This document shows positions 392-64,000 of a DNA stretch of 64,000 bases, in pieces. Below the pieces are notes generated by a model. The model was given only the letters and a program-made list of their open reading frames with translations, was not told where the DNA came from and made no database searches. Source of the stretch: Chloranthus sessilifolius (lineage: Eukaryota; Streptophyta; Magnoliopsida; Chloranthales; Chloranthaceae). The position numbers and the translations under genes were made by a program. How positions within the stretch are numbered: position 1 is the stretch's first letter; the number at the start of each line of letters is the position of its first letter. The stretch spans positions 121,356,331-121,420,330 of the forward strand of contig CM037585.1 in assembly GCA_021018995.1 (NCBI GenBank), in the 5' to 3' direction.

Positions 392-986
392 TGTAACATC
401 CCTGAAATTTTGGACTCCGAATAATATCCTCGGGATGCATGCCCGATTGGTCGTAAGTTTGACCAAGTGAAAGTCAACTTGATAACTTAGGTTTGACTAG
501 GTTTGGGGTGAAAGTGCATATGTATGTGGTGTTGGATCTTTTAATAAGGTCATATACACCTGTTATAGGTGTGTGATTTGCACCAAAGAAATGGATTGGG
601 TTAAATGAGTTAAAAGATAAGAGAAGCTATTTCTCTTGGGTTTTAGTAGGTAGTTAGGGATTTATGAAGAGAGAGAGAGAGTGAGGAAGGGAGAGGGAGT
701 AAAGGCTAAGAATTTTGTGTGGATTGCGGATTGAAGGCGTACGTGGGCTTTAATTTCGAAGGCAAAGTGTGTGAGCTTGTGAAATCAAAGCTTGGAGCCC
801 TAAACCTTGATCCAAGCCAATGGATCATCTATACTTTGGATTTAAGGTAAGATTTCATTGAATTATGATGTGTGAAATGTTTGTGCATGAAATTATTGAA
901 TTAATGGTGAATTAAAGAAATAGAAAAAGAAAAAATTAAAAGAAAAGAAAGCTTAATGAACAACCCAAAGAGGGTTGTATTATGTC

Positions 987-1290
987 AAAATAGATTAATC
1001 GAATTGAGAATCGATCAATCGATTTTTGACAGAAAGCAAATATGAAGACTGAAGCACGAAATCGATTAATCAAAATTAATTCGATTAATCAATTTTTGGT
1101 TTTCAATTAATCGATTAGGAATCGATTAATCGACTGGATACTTTCAGTGGCTGGAAAAATCTGAAGTTTGGAAAACCGATTAATCAATTTTGGGATTGAT
1201 TAACCGATTTTGGAATTTCGATTAATCGATTTGGGATCGATTAATCAAATTTGGAAATTTGATTAATCGATATTAGGATCGATTAATCAA
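987..1290 (+). repeat. Array of TCGATTAATCGA palindromes in the 5' LTR
   Basis: About a dozen full or degenerate copies of a self-complementary TCGATTAATCGA core, spaced by short T-rich linkers. The same array is at about 13575-13890 in the 3' LTR, and a short related stretch is at 11027-11080 before the extra ORF. Confidence 0.85.
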
Positions 1291-2327
1291 TTTTGACAAT
1301 TTTTGTGTGGGTTCTGTTTTAGACCATGGAGTTCTAGGAAGGCCTTGTACCCTTCTTTTATGCATCGTTCTTGATGCTTTGTGTATGACATGATGTACTT
1401 TAGGTTGAGTACTTGGATATGGACATGGAGAGCTACCTTGGACCTTGATTCTTGGAGTTGAAGCACGTGAGGTAGGGAATACTTTGAACATATACTTTGA
1501 TTACGATAGCATGTATGTAGTGATGTGAAAATGTGTATACATGTGTGAGGGCATAGATATATGCTTGTGTTTTCAAAAATTAGTTAAAACATGTGAATTT
1601 AAGGTGTGTGTACACTAAGGAAGAAACCAGTAAGTATATAAATGTGTGACATCCCAGGGATGTATTTCTTTTGATGTAAGCATCTAAGTGATGCATATGA
1701 CTATGTGACATCCCAGGGATGTATAGTCAAATGAGAAACTATGTGAATGAGACTTGAACAAACTTTGAATATTATAATTAGCATAATTACACGGTGATAA
1801 ACTATATGTATTTTGCACAATTAATTTGAGGTTCGGAGAATACCCCACCAACACGGCGGTATACCCGTGACTAACTCGGCAGGATACCCGTGACCGGTAC
1901 GGTGACCAATTCGTATAAACATGTGATGAAATTACCAAGAGGGTAATGAGTATGCCAAGTCTCCTCTGTGAATGGGACTTGAGCTTGTATTTAGTTGAAA
2001 TATAGTTCAACTAGACGATGATAGTGGGTATTCCATTGGGGCTCGATGCTATATTGCTCGAGGATTATTTAAGTTATTTGATTTAAGTTTCAAGACCGAT
2101 CTCCTGGCCTATGTGAACAAAATTGAAAACAAGTTAACACATGTAGAGTAACAGATGCATTCAGTTCATGCTTTCAGTAACTTAAACTGTTTTCCAGCTA
2201 TCTTTCATTGACAAGTCATGTTTCTATATGCCATGGAATATATGTGAGTAAGAAAGATTTATATGTTCATCCAGTTATTTTCCCTATGGAGTTATGATGT
2301 AGCTCACTCATTCGACTATACGTCACA

Positions 2328-2432
2328 AGTCCAATGTTAGCTGTTGCTGCTGCTTCGGGAGACATTGACCCAGAGGACACTGAGTACGTACCTGAGGAGG
2401 AGTCAGAGCCCCCTCCTGAGGAGTTCTTCTAG
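2328..2432 (+). other. Candidate short acidic coding segment in the 5' LTR
   Basis: After an AG at 2328-2329 the frame runs to a stop at 2430-2432. An ATG at 2334 would give a 32-residue acidic peptide whose last part reads DTEYVPEEESEPPPEEFF. The same frame, motif and stop recur at the equivalent place in divergent LTRs at 4225-4326, 7115-7228, 18395-18490, 21577-21675, 41508-41624 and 63881-63979. In the 3' LTR copy (from 14911) a small deletion removes the stop. Expression is unknown. Confidence 0.45.
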
Positions 2433-2539
2433 AGGACCCTCTGCGTACTTTGATTTTTTTGTGAGAGAGATTGTATGACTTGGTATATCCAACCTTCTGT
2501 ATCAGATGTATGTAAATTTTTGTGAGACATTCTTTTGAC

Positions 2540-2579
2540 GAGCCATCTGGGGTGACAACTATTTCGTCACCGTTGGTTC
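2540..2579 (+). repeat. Conserved LTR hairpin
   Basis: An imperfect stem-loop in which GAACCA-like and GTGAC arms pair with GTCAC and TGGTTC. Equivalent hairpins follow the acidic segment in other LTRs: 15123-15162, 4414-4471, 41737-41776, 6939-6979, 21436-21476 and 63736-63774. Confidence 0.55.
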
Positions 2580-2812
2580 GGGTTGGTTCTTTTCTCAAGA
2601 AGTGGCATGAGATCAGAACTATCTTTTGGACTACATGTTTTTGACTTTATCTTATAAAACTGGAGATTTAGTTCAGTATTTGTTCGTTAGTAAATGTTTT
2701 GTTTTCTAGTTGTGTGGATATACCAAGTATTTCATGCATGTATATGGCGCACGGTCTCGAGGGTCATGCCGATGGCATGGGTTCGGGGTGCCAAAATTTG
2801 GGTTGTCACAGT

Positions 2813-2912: not shown

Positions 2913-4138
2913 ATGTCTTCTAGAGGAAGGGGTCAGCCCAAAGGTGGCCATGATAGAAACTTGTAAAGCAGAGACGGTTTCATCTCGACTTCAAATAGAG
3001 TGTCATTGGGGAATAGTGATGCCCCAGGAGACAGTAGTCAGGAGAACTGAAACCAAGAGGAGAATCAAGATAGAGATTAGAGAGAACAAGAAAGGGTTAG
3101 AGAAAGAAATGAAGAAAGAGAAGAGCGTCAGAGGATGATGCACACCATAAAAACCATGGCAAATGCCATGGCTCAACAAGAGGCATCCTTGGTGACTCAT
3201 AATGCCAATGACCAGCATCAGCCATCACCTACGCCTCAAGTGGGTACTACACAACCATTGCTCTTAGTGTTCATAGAGTTTCAGAGGATGCGTCCTCCGA
3301 GTTTTTTAGGGCAAGAAGAGTCAATGGACGCAAAGAATTGGCTAAGTGAGATGAAGAAGGTGTTCAATGTGCTTACATGCATTAAGGATGAAAGTGTCCG
3401 CTGGACAACATATATGTTAGATGGGGAGGCAGGCCCATGGTGGAAGTCCGTATCGAGGACTAGAGCTCAGGAACCCAGGATTGCCATGGACCTGGGATGA
3501 ATTTATGATCGAATTCAATAAATAATATTTTCCTAAAGTTGTGCGTAACCAAATGGAAGTAAAATTTTTTCAACTTGAACAGGGAAAGATGTCAGTAAGG
3601 GAATACGGAGTAGAGTTTATGAGGCTCGCTCACTTTGCTCCTGATTACGTGGTTACCGACTTGATGAAGGGTAAGAGGCTTCAACGCGGCTTGAGGCATG
3701 ATATTAGGGGAAGAGTGGCGGTCTTTGAGCTGAAAACCTATGGAGAGGTTATGAGTAAAGCTCTTGTGATTGAAGAAGATAATGAAGATCGGTATCGGAG
3801 GGGATACCAACAAGGAAGGGGAAGGATGGAGCAGAGTAAAGTGGAAAACTATGAGCCGGTGAACAAAAAGTCGTGATTCGTAGCACCCATATAGAGGCAA
3901 CAGTTTCAAACCAATTTTGTTAGACCGACGCAGAAAAACTATTCTAGACTACCTATGCTTGCGTCATGGAGGCCAATCAGATATGAGAGCTTTGTTACCA
4001 CTACCGGAGTATCAGTTTCCCAGGGTTTCTCACGGGCAGCATCTTCTACACCAAATGAGACTTGTGCCAAGTGTGGCAAGTCTCACAAAACGATGGATTG
4101 TAGACAGGGTACTCAAGGTTGCTACAATTTTTGTCTTT
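2913..4138 (+). pseudogene. Broken gag of the Tekay element
   Basis: Gag forms the particle and binds the RNA. The likely start is the ATG at 2913. The N-terminal part already has stops (near 2965 and later). A recognisable Gag core runs in two blocks: 3135-3500, with FQRMRPPSFLG and DGEAGPWWKS, and 3541-3876, with VKFFQLEQGKMSVREYGVEF. A frameshift and a stop lie between them. A zinc-knuckle segment near 4057-4095 reads CAKCGKSHKTMDC, followed by the start of a second knuckle (GCYNFC). The reading then ends at an insertion or deletion junction at about 4138. Protease and RT never follow. It is non-functional. Confidence 0.85.
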
Positions 4139-4726
4139 GAAAAACCTTTGCTTATGATAAAATGTAAATGGATAAGTTTCCTCTATTGAGCTTCGATGTT
4201 AACTCACCCTGACTATATGTCACAGGTGCTGAGACTGCCTTAGGATCGGACGATCTTGATCTGGAAGACTCTGACTACATTCCTGAGGAGGAATTAGAGA
4301 CCCCAGCAGAGGAGTTCTTTCCCTGATTAGACTGTCTTTTTTATACTTTTGTTTAGAATTATTTTGAATTATGGGCCCAAGGCCATTGTTTTGTCATTTT
4401 TGATATCACTTGAGGAACCATCATTAGGAACCACTATTTTAGGTGTTTAGATTAGCCTTCACCAGTGGTTCTTCCTAGTTCCTCTTAGTGATATATTTTG
4501 TTTAGCTTTTGTCCTTACTTTTATTGGATATGCTTCTGTTTGGAACTTTGCTTATGTTGTCGGCTTTTGTTTGAATTTAAGGCTTATTGAGAAATCAATA
4601 AGTTGATGAACCGGCCTTTCCTATACCTTAAGGATTGGAAAAGTTGGGTCGTCACAGTTGGTATCAGAGCGCGGCTCTAAGTTCAGAATTAAGCATGCTT
4701 CTTATCCTGGTGATCTTGTAAGTATG
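4139..4726 (+). mobile_element. LTR 3' half plus primer site of another Tekay-type element
   Basis: The segment has the same order of landmarks as the complete LTRs: a TATTGAGCT...AACTCAC block near 4185-4208, an acidic frame (4225-4326), a hairpin (4414-4471), the LTR end GTCACA at 4656 and a primer site TGGTATCAGAGC at 4659-4670. Some 55 bases of leader follow before minus-strand pol sequence takes over at about 4727. Both ends are truncated and no target duplication is visible, so it may be a fragment of a third element or a recombination product. The left junction is approximate. Confidence 0.7.
4225..4326 (+). other. Candidate acidic coding segment in an LTR fragment
   Basis: The frame is open from the GGT after CACAG to TGA at 4324-4326 and ends DYIPEEELETPAEEFFP. 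It has the same phase relative to the upstream TGACTATATGTCACAG as the other LTR copies. Confidence 0.45.
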
Positions 4727-6603
4727 CAGGATATCCACTGCATCCATTCTTCATCATCTTCTCAGCCCGAATAGCTTATACAAATGGTGTTACCATAGAC
4801 TTCACTCCAAAAAGTCTAAACGACTTCCTCTTGGGAGGGTGGAAGACTACGATTTTCCGTAGGCAATCTACGATAGCATGGTAAGCAGATAGCTAGTCCA
4901 TACCCAAGATCACATCGAAGCCTACCATATTCAACAATATCAAGTCCGCTCGAGTGTCCTCCTTCTCAACTCTAATAACCACAGACTTGTTCACTGTGTC
5001 TGTTTTCACTGAATTACCTGTAGGAATCGTTACTTCCAAAATGGAATCTAATTTCTCCGACGTAATTCCTATACATGCTGAGAACATCGGAGTAATAAAG
5101 GAATGCGTAGACCCGGGGTCAATCAGTACTATTGCTTCAGTCTCACATATATCTTGCTCTTGACGTATAGGAAGAATACCTTAGTTTATATGTCAAATAT
5201 ACCCGGTCAAGCACATAATCTAATATACAGTAGTCACTAATATTTTTATGTATTAAAATTTACTAACACATTCAAAATATATTAAATCAATGACATAAAT
5301 TTACTCTCAAAGAACAATGATACCTTGAATGAAATCATTCGATGTCAGAGCATCTATTGCAGTGACGACATATGCTCGGCCTTGAACAACAAGTCAAGAG
5401 GATCTCTAAGTGGATATCGATCCAACCTGCTCGTTGCTCTCCTTGCTCTCCCCAGGACAGTTCCTAACCATGTGGCCCATCTTGCCACATTTGAAGCATG
5501 CCCCTGTATCTCTCCTACAGTCCTCAGTCTTGTGTGGCTTCCCACACTTTGCATATAATAGAGTCGGAGCGAAAGATGAAACCCTAGAAGATCCCTGCGC
5601 TACAGAAGCTCCACTAACAGAAGAACCAGACGATCTGAATGGTCTAGATGATGCAGGTATTGCTGGCCTCTAATATGAACTCGGCCCTAATGATATCACT
5701 GGTCGGGAGTGAGTAGGGTATTTGGGAGGTCTGGAGAATCTAGCCCTCTTGTTCTATTTAGGGTCCTGAGATTGTCCGTGAAACGACCTCTCTATGTTTT
5801 GCTTGTCTCTCCAAGCAAACTATTTTTGGTTTTCCTCCTCATAAATGAGATCCTTGGATATAACTGCTGCATATGTATCCAACTCCCATATGGCCACATC
5901 CTTCTGTATATTCGGCCCCAAGCCAAGTTGGAACTTTCGAGCTTGCATTAACTTGGTGGCTACATGTTGCAGAGCAAACCTTGACAATCTCCGCGCTATA
6001 CTCACGCACTGTCATAGTCCCTTGTTCCAACTTGATGAATTTCACTTCCCACTGATGCCTCACGATCTTGGGAAAATACTTCTAGTAGAAGGTTTCTACG
6101 AATTCAACCCATGTCCAAGGGACATTGGGAAGCTCTTGCTCACGGTGCCTCGATAGCGATTTCCACCAAGGCCCCTCTTCCCCATCAAGTTTGAAGGTTG
6201 CCCAGTGCACCTTCTCCACATCAGTGCATTGTAGCACTTCGAACACCTTTTTCATCTCTTCTATCCAACCTTCGGTCTCAATGGGATCTATTTGAATCGA
6301 GAAATTAGGAGGTCTCATTCTCTTAAACTCGGCAAAATCGCCAGATTGGTGAGGTGGTCTAGCTGCTATTTGATTCAAAGCAGCAGTCTACTGAGCTACA
6401 TTGGCAGCTAAAGCTTCCAATACTTACTCCATCCTATTGTCACCACTTCTTCTACCTTCTCTAGGTCCTATCGGAACGACATTCTCATTCGATAGGAACC
6501 CCAATCCCCTAGATGTACCAGCAACATCGAGAATCTCTCGTAGTGGAACCTCTTTCTGTCCTTCTCTCCCTCTGCTATGTCCACCTCTGAACTTTGGGCC
6601 CAT
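4727..6603 (-). pseudogene. Broken gag-protease of the nested minus-strand element
   Basis: The Gag start is the ATG at 6603-6601 (MGPKFRGGHSRGREG). The core follows at 6378-6082 (FAEFKRMRPPNF, DGEEGPWWKS) and 6063-5820 (WEVKFIKLEQGTMTVREYSAE, split by a frameshift). Two zinc knuckles lie at about 5550-5453: CGKPHKTEDC and CFKCGKMGHMVRNC. Protease follows at about 5160-4890 with LIDPGSTHSFI and ends GFDVILGMDWL. The linker towards RT (HAIVDCLRKIVVFHPP) continues to about 4727, with a stop. Several frameshifts and stops make it inactive. Confidence 0.82.
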
Positions 6604-7114: not shown

Positions 7115-7228
7115 CTACGGGTAGAACTCGTCAACAGGGGTGTCAGTGTCCTCCTCCTCTGCCTCAACCTCAGACTCTGGTTGATACTCAGGATCACTCT
7201 CCGTGCCGGGAACTCTAGCCTCAGAACC
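7115..7228 (-). other. Candidate acidic coding segment (minus-strand LTR)
   Basis: After an AG at 7229-7228 the frame reads SDPEYQPESEVEAEEE and continues to DEFYP and TAG at 7117-7115. It has the same phase and placement as the other LTR copies. Confidence 0.45.
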
Positions 7229-8019
7229 TATTATATATAAATAGGGTGAGCTACCATCTAAGCTCAATAGAAGAAACTCAAACAATTTGCATCTAAAATG
7301 TAAAGCATGGCTTACAGAATATAACTCACACAGATAATTAAAGCAGAGTGCAGATAGAACAAAATAGATACAGTCAGATGATCAGATAAGCAAAATAATC
7401 AGGATATAAAACTTTTAGAGAACAGAGCAGATGCAAGGTATAGGGACAGACTTTAATCTCAAAGTGATCAGATGCATACATACAGTAGTTATTGACTTAA
7501 ATTATATATACTTAAATAACTCTCGTGAATATAGCACGTGGTAGCCAGATGTGTGCCAATGGGTAACCCCGACCATCGTCGTTCAATAAATAATTTCAGA
7601 TGATTTGCATCAAGTCTCTACAAAGGGGAGCAACTTGTGCTAAGGGTTTACAAATAAGATATACGAATATCCCGCTGTGCCAGTCGTGGGTATCCTGCCA
7701 TGTCAGAAGGATTCGTCACATAAACTTTAAATCAATATACATAAAGACCTCATAATCAGATGACAGAACATATAACAAAGCTTGTATAATAGAAGAAACA
7801 GATACAGATGCTTTGAAAACCATGCAGTCAAAATTGGATACAAGTTAAGTTGAATTTCCCCTACCTCAGAACAGATCTTTTTAAGAAAATCCAAAGCTTT
7901 CTAAGATGTCCTGATCTTGACCTAGACCATACGTATAGTACACTAAGTGTCAGAAGTGTCATAACCGTAACTGGCATAAAGTCCAGTCTTAAATTCTCCA
8001 AAAACTAAAACAGGCAAAA

Positions 8020-8880
8020 CATGGGAACTCGATTGATCAATCCCTCTATTTGATCGATCGGGTTCACATCTGATAGATCAATCTCAACATTGATCGATCG
8101 TATGCCTCACATTTACTCATTCAGAATAGAGGACATCTGATCGATCGACTCCATGGTTGATCGTTCGGATTCCTTAGTTGATCGATCAATTCTCATAATT
8201 GATTGATCAAAACTAGCATTTCCATACCTTCATAATAGAGGAACATTGATCAATCAATCTCTTCATTGACCGATCGGATCTTCAATTCGATCGATCAATC
8301 CCCATGTTTGATCGGTTGGGTCAAAATTTCATAAAAACACACCTCCTGTTTCATAGTGTGTTTTATAAAATTCGATCGATCAAATCCCTGATTTGATCGA
8401 TCAATTTCACGGTTCGATCAATCAATTCTCAATTGATCGATCAATCCTTCATTTCAGAACAGAGGCAGATTTGATCGATCAATCCTTTAATTGATCGATC
8501 GATTCCTTAATTTGATTGATCAATACCCATAATTGATTGATTGGATTTTTAAAGTCATAAATTTTAGAAAAATAGGCCTCCTATTTTATAGTCTCCTCAT
8601 AAAATTCAATCGATCAAATCCCTGATTTGATCGATCAATTCCCAATTGATCGATCAGTTCACACCTGATCGATCACTTCTAAATTTGATCGATTAGCTCC
8701 AAATTCGATCGATCAAACCACCAGTTTGATCGATCGAGCACATCGGGCTCCAACTTCCCAAGAAAAACACCCATCTATTTCAAAGGGGCATTTACAAAAT
8801 TTGATCAATCAACTCCCAAGTTTGATCGATTGGATTATAGATTGATCAATCAATTCTCACTTAACCGATCAGATATGATG
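8020..8880 (-). repeat. Array of TTGATCGATCAA palindromes
   Basis: Dozens of exact and degenerate copies of TTGATCGATCAA separated by 8-20 bases. The array lies in the 5' third of the LTR, as in the related LTRs, and has no coding capacity. Confidence 0.88.
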
Positions 8881-11220: not shown

Positions 11221-12580
11221 ATGCCACCTAAAACTTGGCAAGCTTCGAAGCAAGCGGCTTCTAAAATACCTATACAGCGTAAGACGCAGCGCCACCAGCA
11301 CTATCACCTTCACCTTCACTTTCCTCTTCGTCATCATATTCGGCGGAGGCGTCATCACACGAATCGTCACCACCACCATCTCAACCGGGCCATTTGGCGC
11401 AACCAAATGAATGGTGGGCCGCGAAGGATTTTGAGGACGAATACACCATTGGCGAGGCTCTGTTTGAGGATCCCGAGGTTGAGGGCAGGACAAAATGGGC
11501 TCGAAAATACCTCATGGATGCGGGCCTCGGTAACCTCTTGAAGCCTTTACATGGCTATTATTACCCTAGGCTGGTTAGACTATTTTACCAACATCTAAAA
11601 GCGGGTAGCGTGACCGGCACCATTACGACCAAAATCGATGGTCGTAAATATATTTTTAGCCTGCGCCACATTCATGAATCCTTGGAATGTTTTCCTATAT
11701 ACGTACCCGAGACCAACCTTTTACCCCCATTTGATCAGCCCATAAATTTTGAAGAAATTAGAACCGAAATGACCAAGGAAAATAAAGGGTCCGAAAAGTT
11801 CATTCGAAGGGTTGACTTACCCCCTCATATGAGGATGCTCGACACTATCATTAAGTGCAACCTCTACCCTATGTATCATGACATTGAAAGGGTAGAGGGG
11901 GTGCAACAGGCGTTGTATGCGGTATACCGAGGCCGTTGGTTCGACGCTACTAAACTGGTGTTAGAGGGCATGGTTTATATCAAGGTAAGATGATGAAGGG
12001 ACCTTTAAGACCAAAGGAGCATATGCCATATTCTCATCTTATTTCTAGCATGATTGAGTGCTACTCTGCTGTCGAAGAGTATGTTATTCCTTCGACCGAG
12101 CCGAGAGCCACTAACCATGTCAAAATTACTCCATCGCTTCCTGGAGCCGAAGCTACAACCTTTTGAAAAAGTTGCTACCACCGGAGGGACCAGCACCTGC
12201 CCCCGCTGATGATGCTCCACCACAATAGGATCACCTAGCAGCAGGGGAGCAGCCTCCTAACCCTGTACAGCCTACAGAGCAGCCTCTGGTGCCACCTACT
12301 GCTCCTACGCAGTTAGCTCTGACTACTCATGTGCCCCCTCACCGCCAGCGTGCGCCTCCAACCATAGCAACCATAGATGATGTTTTTGGCAAGGATGGAG
12401 GACAACAATCAACAAATGAACTGCCAATTTGATTTCCCCCTATACCAAACTATGCAGTATATATATCCCAATGATTACCACCAGCGCATAGCAGCGGAGC
12501 GGACGTGGACTCCTGACGCGTTTGGTTCGAGTACGCAGGGACAAGACGCGGAGGATCGACCAGGGGATGGGACTGCCTGA
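11221..12580 (+). pseudogene. Extra ORF between pol and the 3' LTR (plant transposon-protein-like domain)
   Basis: The start MPPKTWQASKQAASK is at 11221. A frameshift near 11280 leads into a Ser/Pro-rich linker and then a 200-residue domain (11394-11993) with NEWWAAKDFEDEYTIGEALF, RLFYQHLKAGSVTGTI and GRKYIFSLRHIHESL. Its layout recalls the 'putative plant transposon protein' domain often carried by plant retrotransposons. That is recognition by pattern, not a search. After a frameshift near 11990 the reading goes on (KGPLRPKEHMPYSHLISSMI), then a Pro-rich part, and a final block ends at 12580 (TWTPDAFGSSTQGQDAEDRP). Sense orientation, broken by at least two frameshifts and a stop near 12164. 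Confidence 0.65.
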
Positions 12581-12973: not shown

Positions 12974-15394
12974 TGTAACATCCCTGAAAGTTTGGACTCC
13001 GAAGAGTATTCTCGAGATGCGTGCCCGACTGGTCATAAGTTTGACCAAGTGAAAGTCAACTTGATAACTTAGGTTAGACTAGGTTTGGGGTGAAAGTGTA
13101 CATGTGTGTGGTGTTGGATCTTTTAATAAGGTCATATACACTTGTTATAGGTGCGTGTGCTTTGCACCAAAGAAATGGATTGGGTTAAATGAGCTAAAAG
13201 CTAAGAGAAGTTATTTCTCTTGGGTTTTAGTAGGTGGTTAGGGATTTATGAAGAGAGAGAGAGAGAGAGAGTGAGGAAGGGAGAGGGAGTAAATGCCAAG
13301 AATTTTGTGTGGATTGTGGATTGAAGACGTACGTGGGCTTTAATGTCGAAGGCAAAGTGTGTGAGCTCGTGAAATCAAAGCTCGGAGCCCTAAACCATGA
13401 TCAAAGCCATTGGATCATCTATACTTTGGATTTAAGGTAAGATTTCATTGAATTATGATGTGTGAAATGTTTATGCATGAATTTATTAAATTAATGGTGA
13501 ATTAAAGAAATAGAAAAAGAAAAAATTGAAAGAAAAGAAAGCTTAATAAACAGCCCGAAGAGGGTTGTTTTCTATCAAAATCGTTTAATAGAATTGAGAA
13601 TCGATTAATCGATTTTTTATAGAAAGCAAATCTGGAGACTAAAGCACGAAACTGATTAATCAAAATTAATTCGATTAATCAATTTTTGGTTTTCGATTAA
13701 TCGATTTGGAGTCGATTAATCGACTAGAAACTTTTAGTGGCTGGAAAAATCTGAGGTTTGGAAAACAGATTAATCAATTTTGGGATCGATTAATCAATTT
13801 TGGAATTTCGATTAATCGATTTGGGTTCGATTAATCTAATTTGGAAATTCGATTAATCGATATTGGGATCGATTAATCGATTTTGACAATTTTTGTGTGG
13901 GTTCTGTTTTGGACCATGGAGTTCTAGGAAGGCCTTGTACCCCTCTTTTATGCATCATTCTTGATGCTTTGTGTATGACATGATGTACTTTAGATTGAGC
14001 ACTTGGATATGAACATGGGGAGCTACCTTGGACCTTGATGCTTGGGGTTGAAGCACGTGAGGTAGGGAATACTTTGAACATCTACTTTGATTACGATAAC
14101 ATATATGTAGTAATGTGAAAATATGTATACATGTGTGAGGGCATAGAGATATGCTTGTGTTTTCAAAAATTAGTTAAAACATGTGAATTTAAGGTGTGTG
14201 TACACTAAGGAAGAAACCAGTAAGCATATAAATGTGTGACATTCCAGGGATGTATTTCTTTTGATGTGAGCATCTGAGTGATGCATATGAGTATGTGACA
14301 TCCCAGGGATGTATAGTCAAATGAGAAATTATATGAATGAGACTTGAACAAACATTGAATATTATAATTATCACAATTACACGATTATAAACTATATATA
14401 TTTTACATAATTGATTTGAGGTTCGAAAAATACCCCACCGACACGGTGGTATACCCATGACTGACTCGACAGGATATCCGTGACCAGTACGGCGGCCAAT
14501 CCATATAAACATGTGATGAAATTACCAAGAGGGTAACGAGTATGTCAAGTTGCCTCTGTGAATGAGACTTGAGCTTGTATTTAGTTAAAATATAGTTCAA
14601 TTGGACGACGATGGTGGGTATTCCATGAGGATGCTATATTGCTCGACGATTATTTAAGTTATTTGATTTAAGTTTTAAGACCGATCTCCTGGCCTATGTG
14701 AAAAAAATTGAAAACAACTTAACACATGTAGAGTAGCAGATGCATTCAGTTCATGCTTTCAGTAACTTAACTATTTTTCAGCTATCTTTCATTGATAAGT
14801 CATATTTCTATATGTCATGAAATATATGTGAATAAGAAAGATTTATATATTCATCCAGTTATTTTTCCTATTGAGCTATGATGTAGCTCACTCCTTTGAC
14901 TATACGTCACAGGTCCAGTGTTAGTTATTGCCGCTGCTTCGGGAGACGTTGGCCCAGAGGACACTGAGTACGTGCCTGAGGAGGAGTCAGAGCCCATCCT
15001 AAGGAGTACTTCTATAGGACCCTCTGCGTACTTTGATTGTTTTGTGAGAGAGATTGTACGGCTTGGTATGTCTAGCCTTTTGTATCAGATGTATGTAAAT
15101 TTTTGTGAGACATTCTTTTGGCGAACCACCTGGGGTGACGGTTGTTTCGTCACCGATGGTTCAGGTTGGTTCTTTTCTCATGCAGTGGCATGAGATTAGA
15201 ACTATCTTTTGGACTACATGTTTTTGGCCTTATCTTATAGAACTGGAGATTTAGTTAAATGTTTATTCATTAGTGCATGTTTTGTTTTCTAGTTGTGTGG
15301 ATATACTAAATGTTCCGTGCATGTATATGGGGCACGGCCTCGACAGTCGTATTGATGGCACGGGTTTTGGGGTGCCGAAATCCAAACTATCACA
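12974..15394 (+). repeat. 3' LTR of the Tekay element
   Basis: 2421 bp, the partner of 392-2810, followed by the TCTTG target duplication. The palindrome array is at about 13575-13890, the conserved GTAGCTCAC block near 14883, the acidic frame from 14911 (EDTEYVPEEESEP, stop lost by a small deletion) and the hairpin at 15123-15162. Confidence 0.92.
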
Positions 15395-18394: not shown

Positions 18395-18490
18395 TTAGAC
18401 AGTTGGAAAATGATTTTCGGGGTTCTCGTCAATGGCACCCTCTTCTACGAAATCTTCCTCGCCGCCCTCCTGATCTTGATTGGTAGAATC
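18395..18490 (-). other. Candidate acidic coding segment (divergent LTR)
   Basis: After an AG the frame reads DSTNQDQEGGEEDFVEEG, continues through DENPENHFPTV and stops at 18397-18395. It is the most divergent member, but keeps the phase, the acidic composition and the F-P ending. Confidence 0.35.
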
Positions 18491-20991: not shown

Positions 20992-21576
20992 AATATAATA
21001 TAAATATATTATATTATATAGATATAATACATATATCTATATTTAGATATCTCTATTTATAATGCAATTAAAATTTGTATATATTCTAAATATATATATA
21101 TATACTTTTTACTACTGCAGGAAATGAACGAGGAAGGAGTCTCCTTCTTTACTATTTTTTTGTTTTGTTTCTTTTTGAAGCCTCAATTCAAAGAAGAAAT
21201 GTGACAGCCCGGATTTCTGTACCCAGAAATCCGTGCCATCAGGATCATACTCTGGATGATCCCCGGGACAATCACGAGTGTCTGCTCATATAGCGGAAAC
21301 CAAGCAGACACTATCCAGCAGTGGTAGATCGAGTCAGTCATCTATAAACGCATTTCCCATAAAGAACAATAATGATAGATCAGTTAATTCTATATAAAAC
21401 CAAAAGAATACACATTCTCAAAAAGGAACCAAGAAGAACCATTGGTGATAGAAATCCATCACCCAAACAATGGTTCCCGATAGTGGTTTCGAATAGAATG
21501 CATAAATAATACAATAAGTAATCCTACTAAAATATATATAAAAGTGGCCACCAGGCACACAATAATCCAAAAGGAC

Positions 21577-21675
21577 TCAAGCTTTGAATGTCAATGTCTC
21601 GTCCTCGGCCTCAGCCTCTGGGTCAGGCTGGTAGTCTGGGTCACTCTCTGTGCCGAGAGCTACAGCCTCAGAACC
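21577..21675 (-). other. Candidate acidic coding segment (solo LTR)
   Basis: After AG the frame reads SDPDYQPDPEAEAEDE and stops at TGA (21579-21577). It matches the 7115-7228 copy residue by residue in its first half. Confidence 0.45.
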
Positions 21676-22463
21676 TAAAATTGATTTAGAAAGCAAGGTG
21701 AGCTACATCATAGCTCAATAGAAAAATTCCAACTAAACGAATTGAATATACAGATCATGCTATCTCATAACAGAAATCAAATCAGGAACGTATAATCATG
21801 ACGAATCAAACTAAAAGCTGAGATTTTATGCAAGAAATCAGATGTTATGCAAGTATATTATCAGAGTACTTAAATTGTGTGTATTTAACTTAAGAAACTC
21901 CCGTGACTGTATAGCACGGAGTAAACAGGAATGTCCGATAGGAAACCCCAACCAATCGTCGTTCACATGAACAATTTTGAAAGTGCAACAATGCCTCATC
22001 TATGGAGTGCAATTGTGCCGAGGATTGAAAGCAGGTGCACAAGTGTGCCAGGCATCGGATATACCGCCGGGTCGGTGGGGATCATCTGGTTTAAATCATC
22101 AAATTACATACATATATACCTCACAGATCAGATGGCAGAAATCAGAAGCAAGTTTCAGAATACGAATCAGGAAACAGAAATCAAAATAGCATAAATCATT
22201 ATATGCATACATGCTTGGTAAAAATAGAAATCAGGGCATAGATATGAAATAAACATGGAATCATACTCAAAAATAGTTTAAGTTGATTTTCTCCTACCTC
22301 AGGTCACTTTATCTTCTAAGCAAATCCAAAGCCTTTTCAAGGTATCAGGGTTTGATCCTAGATCATAAACATAGTACTTTAAGTGTTAGGGATGTCAGAA
22401 AGTTAACCGGCACAATGTCCGGTGGTGTTTAACCCATAAAACCAAAACAGAACAAAACAGGGG

Positions 22464-23042
22464 TGATTGATCGATCACCACTCTTATTGATCGATCAATA
22501 CCTCTTGTTGATCGATCAATACCTCTCATTGATCGATCACCACCCTCTTAGCTCTCCTTCTGCAACAAGCCATTTGATCGATCAATACACTTTACTGATC
22601 GATCACCTATCATCATTGATCGATCAATACACTCATTGATCGATCAATAACCTCTCTTCTATTCACTTTTAACACAGCTTAAATTGATCGATCACTAACC
22701 CTTTTTCAAAAATTCCCACCTTCTGTTCTCATTAACTATTTATACAGATTGATTGATCAATGCCTTCATTGATCGATCAACACCCTACAGTGATCGATCA
22801 ATACCTATGTTGATCGATCACCAACTGTCATTGATCGATCACTCTCTTGTTGATCGATCAATACCCAGGATTGATCGATCAATGCCCAAATTGATCGATC
22901 AATGCCCTTCGGGCATTGAACTTCCAGGATTTAGGGGCTTCTGTTCCCCTTTTTGTGTTATACAGATTGATCGATCAATGATCTTCATTGATCAATCACC
23001 ACTTGTCATTGATCGATCAATGCCTTCATTGATCGATCAATA
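22464..23042 (-). repeat. Array of TTGATCGATCAAT palindromes
   Basis: About 20 copies of TTGATCGATCAAT at nearly regular spacing of 20-30 bases. Read as protein it gives repeated I-D-R-S units, an artefact of the array. Confidence 0.9.
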
Positions 23043-24539
23043 ATGATGTAAACTCACATTAATGGAGTTCATCTCCAACCCTATTTTTCCTATTTTTCAT
23101 TAATGGTTCTCAACAACCATTATCACAACATCAATGCACATACCTGGGCTTCTCATTTGCCCCTATTTAAACACACAGACTCACCTTTGTTTGGGCCCTC
23201 TCGGGGTTTCGGCAAATCGATACGGATGAGGGTTTCGGATCTAGCTCTCGGAGTTCATCACCAATCCGAGTCCGACGAGCAACCCTTTAGCTCCGGTTCA
23301 GCATGCAGAGACTTCACACACATACCTTAGACCATACCTAAGCTCATTTCATTGAACTCTACCTACCCTAGCTTAGGAAACTCATCATCTCACTCTTGCT
23401 AACCCTGTTTTTCTCCAAGAATCCTCTTGAAAACCCACCTAGCTACAGATCCTTTAGCTACTGGAGCAACTAGGGCAAGGGAAGGAAGAAGAAGAAGAAG
23501 GGGATCTCTCCCTAAGTCTCCCTTTCTTCTCTTATAAGTTACTAAACAGATATTTTTGCTTTGCCCCTAGTTCACGTTCCGTTGTGGAGCACGAACACGG
23601 TTGCTACGGCGCAACGTGTCACATTGCCCTTCTACACAACTCGAACTTAAACGAAAACGCACATGTGAACTCATTTGATCACCGTGCAACTTTTTCTTAA
23701 CTAATATTAATTCTAAAGTTTTAAGTCAGCCTCGATTTCCATGCCAAGCACGTAGATCGAAACAGTCAGGTTCGTGTTCTAAATTTTAGGGTCGTTACAA
23801 GAAAAGTCCTTCTTTCTTCTTTTTTTTTGTTTTCTTTAATTTTTTTTTATTACTTTTGTTGTAGCAGCAATTCAATGAATCAAAAGGTGGGTTTCAAATA
23901 AACTGTAGCATAATGCTTTCTTTATTTATTATTTGTTCTTTTTTATACATTTGTATGCAAAAATATATATTGTCCCTTTTTCTTTTTATTGCAGAAACGG
24001 CTAGGGAAAGAGTCTTTCTCTTCGTCAGTAGCAGCAATTCAAAGAACAAATCTTCTTCTTCACCATTATTTTTTATTTTTTTAATTATTATTATTTTTTT
24101 AGTATAAACTAAATCTATGAAATATTCTAAAATTTTCCCTACCTCGGATCCTAACGTCACGAGTGAAGGTTTGCTTCGGGTCTTGAGCTTTTACCCGTCG
24201 CGCGCCATCCTTTGTCTTCTTCTTCTTCTTCTTGAGTTCAAGAGAGAGGAAGGGTTCTGGGGAGAGATAGTTTTCTAGAGAGAGAGAGAGAGCGTGGCTA
24301 AGACTTTTTGAGCGGAAGGTTTTTTTTTCTAAATAACAATGGCAATCTCGTATCCCATAGGATCCGGTTGCCTTTGAGGCGTGGACTCTATTGACTCTCG
24401 CAAGTTCAAAATTTGAAACAAAAAATTTCCTTTTATTTTATTAAACGGGTGGGTTTTGGTATTAGGCACTAATACCCATCTTTTGTGTTTGTGAATCTAA
24501 GACCGCAAAATAAAAGTGGGGCGTTACAATCTCAAAACC

Positions 24540-27758: not shown

Positions 27759-29358
27759 TGTGCAATTGTGGGAATCAAGATGATCCCGTCGCGACGATGC
27801 GCTCTCTAACGATAAAAAATATAGAGTCGCCACCCGGAGCTTTCGGTATCCCGGGATACTAGTTCATTTTTATGAGCACCAAAGTGCTAAAAATATGACT
27901 CTGAATCTGGTCCACACCAAAGGCACTTGGGTAGGGGCTTCGGTTATCGATCGGGAAGGTGTTAGGCACCCGATCAACCTGCTTAACGCGGTCTCTACTA
28001 ACAGCCAAAAATAAAATAAAGTGAAAGAAAAAAAAATAGTTTCCTCTTACCTAAAAGGGCTTAGAATCCTATTTGTGCCCCTCCGTTCCTACCGAAAAAT
28101 CGGCGGTGTAACGGCACAAATGGGAGGATGGAGGGAGCTAGAAAGAGATAGGAGAAGAAAGGGGAGAGCCGGAGCCCTCGGGCCCTTGTAGCACCATAGA
28201 AGATCCTTGCGTGGCTTGCTTTGATGAGCTCTTGAAGGCCTTGAATGGTGGAAAACGGGGTTCTAACTCCTAGGACTTGAAGCTAAGAGGTAGGAAAGGA
28301 AGGCTAGAGGATCACACACACCTAGGCTATGGATTTTGGATGTAAGAACAAGCTTGGGAAGAGGTTTTGGAATTCTGAAATTTGAGTGAAAATAGTGCAC
28401 AAAAGGGAGGAAGAACTTCTCACTTTGAGCTCTTTCTCTCTTAAGCAAATTTCTCAACCCTTAAACCAAGGGGAGGGGGGCTCTATTTTTAGGAAAAGGG
28501 TAGGTTAGGAGGATACTTAGAGGCTAAACAAGTTTAAAAATTAGGTAATGGGTCATCTAAGGTTTCCTAGGATTTTAAGGGTTTGGAAAGGTATGAAGGT
28601 AGTTTTAATGGTGGATGATAGGTTAGTGTTTCAAATCACTTAAGGGTTGCAAATAGGCATTAAAAGGGTGCAACAAAGTTATCAAAATACACCCCAAGGA
28701 CTGAGGTGGTCAACAAGTCAAACCCCAATCATGAATTTCAGGGCAAAAACCCATTGTTACTGTTCATATGCCTGGCGCAACAAATAGTTGCGCCAGGCAA
28801 AAGCACAGTAAAATAGTGAGGAACAGTAGCCTGGAGGTTGGCTTCGCGAGGGTGGGGCTCACCCATTTATACCTGGCGCAACTATTAGTTGCACCAAGCC
28901 ATTTTTGGGGGAAAAAAGCCTGGCACAACTAACAGTTGCGCCAGGAAAATTCTGGGGGAAAATGGCTTGGCGCAACTATTAGTTGCGCCAGGCAAAAATC
29001 TCGTCAAAAAAGCCTAATTTTCAAATGGCTATAACTTTTGATATACAACACCGATTGAGGAGATTCTTGGCTCGTTGGAAAGCTGGAGAAGTCCTCTTTC
29101 CAATGATATATGATTTGATATCATTAAAAGACCTCAGCTAGTCCTGGTATACCACTATTCATCCATTGCCTGGGAAGGTTAGGTTTAGGGTTCAAAATGG
29201 GTTCTAAGGGTCGAGATTGGTTTCTAAAGGTTTGGGGTAGGTTTCTAAGGGATATAGGGTGATTTCTAAGGGTTCCATACGTGCCATCAAAAGCTCAGAA
29301 TTGCACCTCTCTCGAAAGGTGTTTCGATCGGGCCTTGGGACAAATTTGGGTGTCTACA
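27759..29358 (-). repeat. 3' LTR of the Tat element
   Basis: 1600 bp. Contains four GCGCAACTATTAGTTGCGC-type hairpins (about 28768-29000) upstream of a mutated TATA region near 28480. Very similar to the 5' LTR. Confidence 0.92.
28768..29000 (-). repeat. Hairpin array GCGCAACTATTAGTTGCGC in the 3' LTR
   Basis: Four palindromes of about 25-27 bases with a constant core and small arm changes, spaced by 30-60 bases. Confidence 0.88.
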
Positions 29359-29369
29359 GATGCCCCTCT
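29359..29369 (-). promoter_or_regulatory. Polypurine tract of the Tat element
   Basis: On the minus strand AGAGGGGCATC directly precedes the TGTAGACACC of the 3' LTR. Confidence 0.75.
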
Positions 29370-29437
29370 GACGGGTCCGCTGTATTCAGAACGAACTTCA
29401 AACATCAAGTGAGTAACACGGTGAGAAAATGAAAGCC

Positions 29438-29967
29438 CTAGAGTGCAAGGCTAATCATTCGTTTCTCGAGGTCATCGGTTTCCAAGCGCTTAGCAACATT
29501 ACTGGGCATAACCGAGGTGGCATGAGTTGCGAACTCCCTATAGTCGGGAAAGATGCTCACTTCTCGGGATGATTTTGAAGGTATTTGATGTTTAGGATTT
29601 ATTCTGAATTCAACAACATCGTAAGTAGGAGGGGTGATTGACCCACATTCAAAGATAGGTGTGAAGTAAACATACGCAAGGCTCCACAACTTGCGTCCAA
29701 TCCTACAAGGCATTTGATGGCCTCATCGGATTATTCGTGGGTGCCCCTACTGAAAGCAGGGTTCAAGATCTCTGGGCGAACCCATCGATCCCGAAGTTTA
29801 TTTAGCATGACCACCCGAGCGAAGTGAATAGATGTCACAACACTTTTTGGGAGTACGTGCCATTTTTCAAAATGTGCCCCAGATCCACATGACCCAGAGT
29901 ATCCAGTTTCGACTTCCTTGAACAGATCCAGCAAAACATTGGGCACCTCCCAAAAGGGGGAATCCAA
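29438..29967 (-). pseudogene. Extra ORF between pol and the 3' LTR of the Tat element
   Basis: Two overlapping-frame blocks on the minus strand: 29967-29731 (SPFWEVPNVLLDLFKEVETG, HFARVVMLNKLRDRWVRPEI) and 29713-29438 (GRKLWSLAYVYFTPIFECGS, FPDYREFATHATSVMPSNVA). One frameshift separates them. The composition and continuity look like a real protein whose stop is about 70 bases before the polypurine tract. Additional ORFs at this position are known from some Tat-lineage elements. I do not recognise the domain. Confidence 0.5.
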
Positions 29968-30545
29968 TCCTGGCCTCTGTTGACAATGATCATAATCATC
30001 AATTAACTATACATAATCATGAACTCATTAGGGGCAATAAGCAACAATAAAGGTGATGGAAGCCCCGACCCGGACCCGTCTGGGTACAATTTACAGGGAC
30101 AAACGACCATCATACTGATACCCAGACGCATGGCATACACTTTATAGGGATACCGCTGCCCATACAGGTTTTAAGCCTGCAGAAAATAAAAGGGAAATGA
30201 ACCCTTCTGAATGTATGGTTGCACATAGTTTGATTGACACATAATCTCATTCTCAACAGGTTGGTCCCAACCAACGATTTACCTTTTTCAACAGAGAATC
30301 TGAAGCTTAAGAGAACTCAAGTTCACATGAATCCAAAATAGAGCGCTCATCGCTCAAAAGATTTAGCAGTGGAGTTGACCCAATCGAAACATTGACAGTT
30401 TGACCGGGACTAACACCGTTGCTCCTACTTTGAAGTAGGATTCATGGATCCAAGGCGAACCTTTGACCTAGGACATTAATTTTGCACATTTGTATTGTCA
30501 AAAAAATATTGACATTTTATCGCATCGAAACACGCATGTGCGTCG

Positions 30546-31076
30546 CTATGCGTAGCATGAAAACATAGATTTCTTTTTCTTTTCAAAATGATTTTCATTT
30601 TTTGTTAGACCTGACGTCAGTGGTGAGATGATATATCTAATTTGTCCATCGCTGAGAAGTTGCCTGCTTCGAAGCTTTGGACCGTGTGATGTTCCTGCAC
30701 ATTCTCGAGGAAAATATAGATTTCTATCTATATTTTTCATTTTCAAGATATTTGTTGGATTTTTGTTTTTTGGATATTTTTTGTTATTTTTCTTCATTTT
30801 TGAGATTGAAATATGATGCTGAAATATGTATATGAAAATGAGTAGAAATATATACACAGTTTTTTTGTGTTTGGATTTTTCTTGATTTTTTTGTTTTTGG
30901 ATTTTTTCCTCTCTTTTTTTTTTATGCCTTGATGGTGAGACAGAGTAACAGGTCCCATTTTGAGCATAGTCGAACTCTTTCATGCAGTCGGACCTGAGTG
31001 AGTTTCCAGATTTAACCAAGGCCAGAACATTGATCCCTTTGGATTGAGTTAAACCTTTCTCCTTGCCTCGGGTCAT
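30546..31076 (-). CDS. Unrecognised ORF in the Tat element, possibly spurious
   Basis: 176 codons on the minus strand. The first 50 residues (KGINVLALVKSGNSLRSDCM, EFDYAQNGTCYSVSPSRHKK) look coding. The rest is Lys-rich low complexity made by T-rich DNA. It may be the N-terminal remnant of the extra ORF at 29438-29967. Confidence 0.25.
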   Translation of the reverse strand: MTRGKEKGLTQSKGINVLALVKSGNSLRSDCMKEFDYAQNGTCYSVSPSRHKKKREEKIQKQKNQEKSKHKKTVYIFLLIFIYIFQHHISISKMKKNNKKYPKNKNPTNILKMKNIDRNLYFPRECAGTSHGPKLRSRQLLSDGQIRYIISPLTSGLTKNENHFEKKKKSMFSCYA

Positions 31077-31261
31077 ACATTTGACGGTATGGGTTTCACA
31101 AAGACAATTATGGTCGGGACCCGATTCGAACTAGCATGAGCGGCCCAGTCGGACAAGAGGGTACAGGAAGAGTAACAAAAGGGTTCCTCAAACATTAATC
31201 TTCTCAATCAACCCAAACCTTCTTTTCTTTTTCTCTCTTCCTTTTTTTTTATCTCCCTTTT

Positions 31262-31405
31262 TTACCCATGGCGCCCTTTCGGGTTTTCACCACGTCCATG
31301 GGTTTAGCTTTCTTACCCCAAGCCCCCTTTCGGGTTTTCACCTGGTCCGCACAAGCTCACTGTTTTTACCCGTAGCGCCCTTTCGGGTTTTCACCACGTC
31401 CATCT
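31262..31405 (-). repeat. Three tandem units with GCCCTTTCGGGTTTTCACC
   Basis: Units of about 50 bases (near 31271, 31325 and 31378) share CCCTTTCGGGTTTTCACC and a variable CACGTCCATGG part. Non-coding internal region of the Tat element. Confidence 0.75.
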
Positions 31406-39176: not shown

Positions 39177-39598
39177 CTATTGCTGTATGAACTGGATGGG
39201 ATTGGATTGGATGTGGGTTGGGTGTTCCCCTTGAATGTAAGGGAAGCGTTGTGGGGTGATGGGATGGGTGGTAGTTTGGTTTAGGAGTGGGGCCTGATAA
39301 GGCCATTGAGTATGGGGGAAGGTTTGGAGATGGCCTTGGGGTGTGGGGCCATGGGGGAATTGGGTTTGGGAGATGACATGGGTTTGACCTAGCTGTGAAG
39401 ATTGGGTTAGGTGTTGGGGGTGTTGTGGAAGGTATGAGTGTGGGGTTTGGGTTTGGGCCATGAACCCTTGATCATTTTGAGCCATAGGCCACTGATGGGT
39501 TTGGGCCATGGGCCCCTGGTAGATTTGCGCCATGGGCCTTGGATAGGTTTGGGCCAATGGGCCTGGGTAGGTTTGGGCCATGGGCCCTTGATGAGTCT
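39177..39598 (-). repeat. Gag repeat array, part 1 (GGGCCCATGGCCCAAACC)
   Basis: Tandem 21-27-bp units encode P-M-A-Q-T-x-Q on the minus strand. The array continues at 42007-42640 beyond the inserted LTR, so it was one array before the insertion. Confidence 0.8.
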
Positions 39599-40179
39599 TG
39601 TAACGTCCCAGAAATTTCGTATTTTAAATGGTTCACCTCGGGATGTGGACCAAATGGTCACGTGTTTGACCGGGTCAATTTTAACTTGAGTTAACTTAAG
39701 ATTGGTAATCTTGAGTGAAAAATTCATGTTAATGGAGGGTAGTGAAAATAAGTGTTGTATTGCACACACGTACGCTAGATGGTTATAGACGCTTAACACC
39801 CAATCTAAGGATAAGACTATAAGAATGAAAGAAAGGGGAAATAAAGGGTTTGAATAGAGTAGTTGAGAAGGGAGTTAAGAGAAAGAGAGAGAGAGAGTGT
39901 AAGGTAAATGTGAGAAATCACACGAAGGCATTGAATACTGTTCTTTGATCTTAGCTCGCAAAGTCTAACGGATCGAGCTCGGGATCGAAGAGAGATTTTT
40001 GTTGTGGGTTTGAGAAACCCTAGCAAACTAGGGTCTTGGATCAAGAAATCCAACCGATTGAAGGTTTATTTTCTTATATTAATGTAAATTAGAAAGCTAC
40101 GATATGAAATCAATGATGAATCTGCATAAGGGAGTGATGATAATTGCTAGGGATAACAAATTCGATCCATAGCTGAGGA

Positions 40180-40470
40180 GAGACAAATTCGTTCAATCGA
40201 AATGAGAATCCGATCGAACGAATTTGGCCTAAGAAGAAGATATGAATTGAGAAAAAGGTTTCTGAGTAAATCAATCGAACGATTTGAAAATCGTTCGTTC
40301 GATTTAGAAACCGTTCAATCGAAATAAAAATCAATTGAACGGTTTGCTCAGAAGATAAAGAAGTCAAAGGAGAATTCGTTCGAACGAAATAAAATTCGTT
40401 CGAAGATATGAAATTCGTTCGAACGATATGAAATTCGTTCAAACGATTTAAAAACCGTTCGATCGATTTG
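40180..40470 (+). repeat. Array of TTCGTTCGAACGAA palindromes
   Basis: About ten full or partial copies of the CGTTCGAACG core with A/T flanks. Same place in the LTR as the ATCGATTAATCGAT and TTGATCGATCAA arrays of the related LTRs. Confidence 0.85.
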
Positions 40471-41507
40471 GTTAAAATTAGGCTTTGATGCCTAATTTAG
40501 CTTGTTAATGAATTGTAAGAGAATTTAAACTTTTTAAACCACTGTTTAGACTTAGTAGTGATATTTGTCATGCATTGATCATGCCTAGGTTAAGCCGAAC
40601 CGTTGAATACTCATAGAAAGATTGGGTTTGAGGATTCAAAGGTTCGAGACGTGTGTAAGGTAGGGGAATATCTAACTAATATACCATATTGCGAGCACGT
40701 ATGTAATGATAGTGTACGATGCATGTTTCTTTAAATTTTGTTTTCGAATTATCATAGAAATAATGTAAAAAGTAAAGTAGATGGCAATAGTGCATATGTT
40801 TACATAAGTAAAAGAGAAATTGGTTAAGTAAAGAAGATCATCCCAGGGATGTAGGAATACACAGGCATCGCAGAAATGCAATAGACAAGTTACATCCCAG
40901 GGATGTGAGGTGGATAAAAGATCCATGTTAAAGAAATGAACAGTAAGCATGAATGTACGGGCTGAGTGTTATTAACTATTAGCACAAATTCACGGTGAAT
41001 AACTATATTTATTGCACAATTCGATTTAAGGTTTAGAGAATACCCAACCGACGCCAAGGATAACCGTATGTGGCGGGATATCCGTAATGCACGTGGCTAA
41101 TCCAGATAATGAGACATCCCAGGGATGTATAGTAGTATTAAGCTCGTCGCCTAAGAAAAAGGGACGAGGAAAATTCTATGAAAAATAGTCTGATTAGACA
41201 ACGATGGAGGGTATTCCATCGGGGCTCGATACTATATTGCTCGGGGATTATTTAAGTTAAGATTTAAGTCATGATCTCAGCCTGGTTGCAACTAAGGAAA
41301 CTAGTAGTTATTGAAAGAAATGCATGATTAGAATGACATAAGTAGTCATATCGTTTTGTCACATCTTAAAGTTATTTTCAAGAAATAATTTAATTATGAA
41401 TGCATGTCTATTCTTTTCATGAAATATATGATTGTAAAATGGATATATTTGCTGTGATATTGCCCTATTGAGCTAGGATGTAGCTCACCCTTTGACTATA
41501 TGCCACA

Positions 41508-41624
41508 GGTGATGGTTTAGAATTTGATGAGAGTGTAGGAATTGCCACGGACGAGGGTGATCCTGGTGATTCGGAGTACTTTCCGAGGGAGGAGACTGAG
41601 CCACCTCTGGAGAGATTCTTCTAG
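41508..41624 (+). other. Candidate acidic coding segment (solo LTR in gag)
   Basis: After CACAG the frame is open for 38 codons and ends GDSEYFPREETEPPLERFF then TAG. The upstream TGACTATATGCCACAG is in the same phase as in the other copies. Confidence 0.45.
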
Positions 41625-42006
41625 AAGATCTTCGCTGCGTATTTTGGTTTGTTTTGATAGTTTAAGGAAGAGAATTACGGCTTGGTACGTCCAGCCTTAT
41701 TTTTGAGAGTAAATGAATATGTAATATTCTTTTGTCGAACCATTGAGAGTGACCATAGTTACGGCACTAATGGTTCGGGTTGGTTCTTTTGTTCATGAGG
41801 AGTCATGAAATTAGAACTATCTTTTGGGCATGTGCTTTTTTTAGATTAACATACTGTAAAAATAGGAGAATTATTTTGCTTTATTTTCTTTTATTTACTA
41901 TTATGATTGGGATGTATCAAGTGTTCCGCACTTACATTATGGGGCTTGGCCTTATGGGATGTGCAGATGGCACAGGTTTCGGAGTGCCAAAATTCGGGCT
42001 GTCACA

Positions 42007-63582: not shown

Positions 63583-64000
63583 TGTGACGACCCGACTTTT
63601 CCAATCCCTCAAGTATAGGAAAAGCCGATTTGCCAACCTATCGGTTAAACGATAAGCCGGACAAACAAAGCACATATCAGAGTAGAGCGCAATAAATAAT
63701 CAAGCTAAGAAAATGCGGAAGCAATTAAAGTAAAGAATCATCGATGATGGCCGACCATCATCGAAACATGGTTCACAACAGCAATAAATCAATAAGTACT
63801 AAACCAAAATGTCCAACCAAAGGTGAGCCCACAAGTTCAACTCTAACACTCTCACTAAAGAATTTTAAATAAACTAGATCCTAAGCCGGAAAATACTCAA
63901 GAGGAATCTCAGGCTCTTCCTCGGGTATGTAATCAGGATCAGTCTCGCAACCCTGAACTGCCACATCAGTACCTAGACCTGTGACGTATAGTCGGAGTGA
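63583..64000 (-). mobile_element. 3' end of a minus-strand Tekay-type LTR, cut by the window end
   Basis: Ends (minus strand) GGGTCGTCACA at 63583. The hairpin is at 63774-63736 and the acidic frame at 63979-63881, preceded by TATACGTCACAG, in the same order as in the other LTRs. TTTAT at 63578-63582 would be the target duplication. Confidence 0.82.
63881..63979 (-). other. Candidate acidic coding segment (right-end LTR)
   Basis: The frame after CACAG reads GLGTDVAVQGCETDPDYIPE, then EEPEIPLEYFPA and TAG at 63883-63881. Confidence 0.45.

Follow-up and report, generated by a model that had tools for sequence, protein, structure and literature searches.

The long terminal repeats (LTRs) of several retrotransposon families in Chloranthus sessilifolius hold a real exon that is under selection at the protein level, although LTRs are commonly regarded as non-coding control regions. 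The exon was found in a window of 64,000 nucleotides (the whole stretch of DNA analyzed here; assembly GCA_021018995.1, contig CM037585.1, positions 121,356,331 to 121,420,330), in which divergent LTRs of chromoviruses (Ty3/gypsy) share a short acidic reading frame that starts at a conserved AG in phase 1. Translation most likely reaches the frame by splicing, and the splicing partner is probably, but not provenly, gag. In the reading that we favor, to which we give a probability of about 45%, the segment is a terminal coding exon whose 3' LTR copy would serve as an alternative last exon, with a donor at the end of gag as its partner.

An acidic reading frame shared by divergent LTRs

The initial annotation had placed this frame in eight LTRs, each time behind an AG in the same codon phase, with a motif of acidic residues and Y-x-P and with an F-F/Y-P ending. 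The frame is indeed present at all eight places, its translations are as described, and the copies can be aligned at one codon phase. Element A carries it in its 5' LTR (2329..2432, plus strand), where it is open to the stop, and in its 3' LTR (14913..15019, plus), where a frameshift lies close to the end. The other copies are in a family B LTR fragment with a primer-binding site after it (4226..4326, plus), a family E solo LTR (41509..41624, plus), a family C LTR with both a primer-binding site and gag downstream of it (7115..7227, minus), a family D solo LTR in which the end of the frame is altered (21577..21674, minus), a family F LTR truncated by the window edge (63881..63978, minus) and a divergent copy, G (18395..18489, minus). 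Since the copies at 2328 and 14911 belong to the two LTRs of element A, which are 91% identical, the window contains seven independent insertions.

The details of the pattern are less uniform than annotated. The AG stands at the common place in seven of the eight copies and one base later, in CACAAG, in the copy at 2328. The acidic-Y-x-P motif is likewise present in seven copies and is replaced by EEDFVEE in copy G (18490-18395, minus), which has the phase, acidity and upstream block of the others. The F-F/Y-P ending is missing at 14911 (frameshift) and 21675 (altered end), and the copies at 2328 and 41508 finish with FF without the P. When all six frames of the window were searched for [DE]x[DE][YF]x[PA][DERK], seven matches were obtained, every one within these LTRs (copy G, with its variant motif, is outside them), whereas 60 simulated order-1 Markov sequences had a mean of 0.88 and a maximum of 5. 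The exon peptides, counted for six copies, are 31 to 38 residues long and have a net charge of -9 to -13.

Selection at the protein level

The differences between the copies had been described as lying mostly at third codon positions, and this was confirmed for a 12-codon core, in which the pairs C-D, B-F and A-E differ 8, 5 and 22 times at codon positions 1, 2 and 3, respectively. We then used the genome of C. sessilifolius (2.17 Gb, 32 contigs). In 30 copies of family C, the first 60 bases had diversities of 0.08, 0.07 and 0.33 by codon position, without gaps, and no comparable codon-position pattern was seen in other 60-base blocks across 1,500 bases upstream. In 30 copies of family E, the corresponding values were 0.019, 0.009 and 0.110, again with no comparable pattern elsewhere in the examined stretch. 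Both sets were the best peptide matches and are biased, because such a selection itself lowers the number of amino acid differences.

Because the C and E copies had been chosen by peptide similarity, we drew an unselected sample of stretches that were located solely by the polypurine-tract (PPT)/LTR-start pattern, with the segment not considered. This pattern occurs at 913 exact places in the genome (control pattern, 0), and 18 stretches were taken at the expected offset. The segment was at least partly present in 17 of them (L113 is without it), and in 13 of the 14 stretches that contain the whole segment the frame was intact up to the stop at its end, all gap lengths being divisible by three; the other one, L102, is frameshifted. 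With L102 and two stretches with an incomplete core (L114 and L115) left out, 14 usable cores remained. Their ratio of nonsynonymous to synonymous differences (pN/pS) was 0.25 (bootstrap, 0.12 to 0.47), a value to be read with synonymous differences close to saturation and with the stop-free core required of each stretch as a mild filter in itself. Shifting the frame of the same cores by one or two bases gave pN/pS values of 1.02 and 1.47, and none of 200 neutral star-tree simulations reached a value as low as 0.25. Seven clade representatives, three of which are window copies, had a pN/pS of 0.30, with 0 of 300 simulations as low. In a blind three-periodicity scan, the frame accounted for the five best of 131 windows of the C-D pair (P = 0.007 to 0.013); the A-E pair, with 0.067 for the frame and 0.066 for an unrelated window, is weak when taken alone. 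The dN/dS check on copies picked blind to the segment thus came out at 0.25 and not near 1, and the segment is under selection at the protein level. First-look genome searches with three family queries yielded 27,451, 14,961 and 5,608 candidates, of which 150 each were scored and all matched; copies of the LTR exon may number in the thousands across several families.

A coding exon behind a putative 3' splice site

The frame starts at a conserved AG, in phase 1. The AG is present in all 13 PPT-selected copies with data (four were without data), in 29 of 30 copies of family C and in 29 of 30 copies of family E. As the initial annotation had noted, an ATG is absent from nearly all copies of the frame; in addition, the 60 nucleotides upstream contain an in-frame stop in all 30 copies of family E and in 20 of the 30 of family C. 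Because the AG is conserved, an ATG is nearly always absent and a stop in frame often lies just upstream, we infer that the frame is a coding exon entered through a 3' splice site: the AG would act as the acceptor, and translation would most likely reach the exon by splicing, with entry in phase 1. The tract ahead of the AG, as judged by eye, is T/A rich and of variable length in family C. The earlier suggestion of a small protein or an exon encoded in the LTR therefore holds for the exon, in line with the pN/pS of 0.25, whereas a free-standing small protein finds no support, since a start codon is rare and the upstream stop is frequent.

In several families, an inverted repeat, TGAGCT..AGCTCA, lies about 20 bases ahead of the acceptor (for example, at 7246-7270, minus strand). 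Such a repeat could fold into a hairpin close to the branch site or be bound by a protein.

A predicted phase 1 donor at the end of gag

A donor with the same phase as the LTR acceptor is predicted at the boundary of gag and protease. There, a GT..AG intron follows ..SND(I/V/F)IQ in every family examined at this place (E, B and C), with a predicted length of 183 nucleotides in E, 127 in B, 132 in C, 144 in the family C element of the window and 187 in a second E-like copy. The predicted intron of the window element (5180..5323, minus; 144 nucleotides) begins at CAAG/GTATCA in phase 1 and provides the proposed donor for the LTR exon. All of these predicted introns are in phase 1, the protease frame resumes beyond them, and the readings inside the intron differ among families. 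A search for the intronless boundary gave ten genomic places at ≤2 mismatches (for example, C7:87137482; control, 0). The only one of these places that was read, L120, shares about 73% identity with B and C to either side of the boundary, with the homology reaching the junction exactly, and may represent either intron loss or an ancestral intronless state. The boundary thus has GT..AG ends, a frame that continues across it and, in the one relative read, a precise intronless homologue, as would a spliceosomal intron, with splicing itself being a prediction. A further short intron is predicted within the integrase of families B and C, between ..VDFQ/VEFQ and VGD/VRD; it measures 81 and 82 nucleotides in L041 and L046 (B) and 74 nucleotides in both L039 and L045 (C), and two E copies read through this place without an intron.

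The usual partner of the gag-end donor (..SND-I/V/F-IQ-G/GT, phase 1) would be the protease exon 127 to 187 nucleotides downstream, and this splice would give Gag-Pol. If the same donor were joined to the exon in the 3' LTR, pol, the extra open reading frame (ORF) behind it and most of U3 would be removed, and the resulting short mRNA would encode Gag with an acidic tail, whereas the unspliced RNA would be the replicating form. The gag-end donor is the most economical partner, because the LTR exon is kept in families A, B and E, whose extra ORF has no conserved donor, and the gag-end donor is seen in E, B and C. In clade C, the donor of the extra ORF may share the same LTR exon. Somewhat more tentatively than the choice of partner, we propose that the single gag-end donor is a splice switch: with one donor for two acceptors, the choice of acceptor would determine how much Gag-Pol is made relative to a Gag with an acidic, aromatic-anchored tail, and the exon with its own acceptor would be present twice per element and also in solo LTRs. 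The tail would probably act through its charge and spaced aromatic residues (D/E-Y-x-P .. E-F-F/Y); a role as a counterweight to the basic zinc-knuckle region in assembly, or as a histone-binding segment, is conjecture.

Several points weigh against gag as the partner. The gag-end donor can be explained without any partner in the LTR, since it would be used for gag-protease splicing, and an agreement of phase would arise by chance in one case out of three. The donors of B and C (GTATCA and GTATCT) are poorer matches than that of E (GTGAGT), at least one relative (L120) does not have the intron, and the LTRs contain donor-like sites of their own. Furthermore, the intronless gag/protease boundary of family E was not found in the genome search, and the genomic E copies look as if they were derived from unspliced RNA. 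Finally, no genomic junction of gag to the LTR exon was found at ≤2 mismatches for B/C or E, nor, at the same limit, one of the extra ORF to the LTR exon in C or of an LTR-internal exon to the LTR exon in E. The absence of joined genomic copies is weak evidence, however, because RNAs of this kind would have neither the polypurine tract nor the greater part of U3 and would seldom be copied back.

At C1:79123008 (L077, C1:79121800-79124800), a 176-codon open frame was considered as a spliced copy and rejected, as it reads as a deletion by which the RNase H region and the LTR exon have come to share one reading frame. An exact-pattern search for family B exon copies without their usual upstream bases gave none.

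Other partners and other readings

The LTR exon might instead serve as the terminal exon of the extra ORF that lies downstream of pol; this would put the acidic tail on that protein and leave gag uninvolved. In clade C, a GTAAT/GTGAT-type donor is indeed kept 236 to 346 nucleotides ahead of the LTR in six of six copies (L039, L043, L045, L090, L092 and L097), and in four of them (L043, L090, L092 and L097) the extra ORF is open to that donor in phase 1, the frame being broken upstream in the other two. However, in the copies of clades A, B, E and X that were examined, the extra ORF ends in a variable tail and a stop of its own, with no conserved strong donor, and A, B and E nonetheless keep the LTR exon. 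The search for the joined sequence in C also gave 0 matches, and we regard an exclusive role of the extra ORF as rather unlikely.

Less likely still is a junction to an upstream exon in the same LTR, by which a leader intron would be removed and a small peptide produced ahead of gag. Donor-like sites, scored with an approximate plant matrix, lie about 455 to 615 nucleotides from the start of LTRs in families A, E (L078, L080 and L081, the copy in the window being an exception), C and D, and family B has one after a telo-box, about 385 nucleotides before the exon. When these sites were read into the phase of the exon, however, there was no ATG in E, C and D and a stop at the junction in A; only in family B was a frame from an ATG open, in two of six distinct copies. 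No further coding-like stretch was seen in the parts of the LTRs examined, which lay beyond their first part, and the search for the LTR-internal junction in E gave 0 matches. A leader intron without a coding role may exist alongside. According to a 2005 paper, an intron upstream of gag had not been reported for LTR elements up to then (PMC1142308). The donor-like sites, which in both B and E are close to a telo-box, AAACCCTAG, may be the sign of such an intron within the LTR.

Conserved promoter or regulatory DNA that happens to be free of stops would be in line with the conservation of the block just upstream, with its inverted repeat TGAGCT..AGCTCA and TATA-like words, but it is already contradicted as an explanation of the frame, and very improbable, since variation follows a single reading frame, with a concentration at its third codon positions, and since indel lengths are divisible by three in 13 of 14 PPT-selected copies of full length. 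That pol itself runs on at its C terminus, without interruption, into the 3' LTR, as known for the integrases of CRM elements (PMC3059260), is contradicted as well and is the least probable of all: in two family E copies, pol does not continue as an uninterrupted frame into the 3' LTR but stops about 2.8 kb before it, after the chromodomain (Pfam on one copy), and all 30 E copies have an in-frame stop ahead of the exon.

Elements that carry the exon

The exon-bearing group is chromoviral, because a chromodomain closes pol in a family E copy: at locus L080, the end of pol comprises an SH3-like domain of the integrase together with a chromodomain (Pfam Chromo, 2.5e-6, 27.8 bits, above the cutoff). 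The pol ends of B and C read as similar to this one, the Pfam scan covering the one E copy. LTR ends of the TG..CA type, a 5-bp target duplication and a primer-binding site, which we take to be of the tRNA-Met type, were also found, as expected for chromoviruses.

Element A has its 5' LTR (TGTAACATCCC ... GTTGTCACA) at 392..2810 (plus), a primer-binding site at 2812-2824 and its 3' LTR, with a polypurine tract ahead of it, at 12974..15394 (plus). The solo LTRs of family E (39599..42006, plus) and family D (21200..23799, minus) are flanked by the 5-bp target duplications AGTCT and TTTCT, respectively. In the family C element, the CCHC zinc-knuckle piece of gag lies at 5409..5669 (minus) and the protease part of pol, downstream of the predicted intron, at 4896..5179 (minus). 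An extra ORF between pol and the 3' LTR was found in families A, B, C and E. That of element A (11283..11990, plus) is weakly similar to Transposase_32, with 26.9 bits, and a family B piece had 16.8 bits, both below the curated cutoff of 45 bits; two extra-ORF pieces of family E gave no Transposase_32 match in Pfam. By eye, the extra ORFs of E and A/B appear to be related.

Zinc-knuckle gag sequence joins the family B LTR fragment directly at about 4090-4180 (plus), an apparent recombinant junction. Tandem repeats rich in GATCGATC, which read as DRS repeats, are present in the C and D LTRs (8139-8737 and 21200-23799); C copies also have repeats of this type in the interval that separates pol from the extra ORF. 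A separate element (27759-46534, minus), presumably of the Tat type, has a second RNase H-like domain (RVT_3) and LTRs that are 92% identical, and the family E solo LTR is nested inside it.

Implications and comparison with known systems

If the gag-end donor serves both acceptors, this could account for a surplus of Gag in elements in which gag and pol are joined. A selected LTR exon would also aid in telling replicating from dead lineages. Moreover, a solo LTR would be a potential ready-made exon trap, from which host genes could capture the exon together with its acceptor.

Retroviral accessory genes such as sag of mouse mammary tumor virus and nef of human immunodeficiency virus extend into the 3' LTR; as proposed here, LTR coding sequence is accessed by splicing, but the proteins are different. 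In the Ty1/copia element EVD of Arabidopsis, Gag-Pol is made from a long RNA, whereas Gag comes from shGAG, which is spliced and shorter (PMC8892269). As in EVD, one element would give two products, which is proposed here from the anatomy of donors and acceptors; in contrast, the short EVD RNA ends by premature cleavage and polyadenylation, whereas the present group belongs to Ty3/gypsy and would use a last exon in the 3' LTR that encodes a conserved acidic tail. Ogre (Ty3/gypsy, Tat) has an intron between protease and reverse transcriptase that is removed from a subset of transcripts to give the polyprotein (PMC6317226). The elements described here share with Ogre a predicted intron that separates coding domains, but theirs lies between gag and protease, and B and C have another in the integrase.

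The integrase of the chromovirus CRM is encoded partly inside the 3' LTR (PMC3059260), a precedent for chromoviral coding sequence within this repeat; however, the LTR part of CRM belongs to the integrase, whereas the present exon is located far inside the LTR and is preceded by what looks like a 3' splice site. In plant LTR elements, additional ORFs in sense orientation may be located downstream of pol, ahead of the 3' LTR (PMC7264820), and a 5' additional ORF has been described for sunflower Tekay (PMC11728184). These are likewise extra coding regions outside gag-pol, some of them spliced, but the parts of the two papers considered describe no LTR-internal exon. In one open-access library, which leaves out most subscription papers, and in the passages considered of the papers cited, we found no report of a conserved exon in a plant LTR that is reached by splicing.

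The peptide itself had no match in a PDB search with one family C exon peptide up to an E value of 10 or in a Pfam scan of two exon peptides, and nothing was found in viral and bacterial sequence collections. The acidic domain of APLF holds histones through spaced aromatic residues (PMC9328677); the exon peptides also combine an acidic stretch with spaced aromatic anchors, a likeness of composition only. The LTR exon would be a new variation on known splicing strategies of retroelements.
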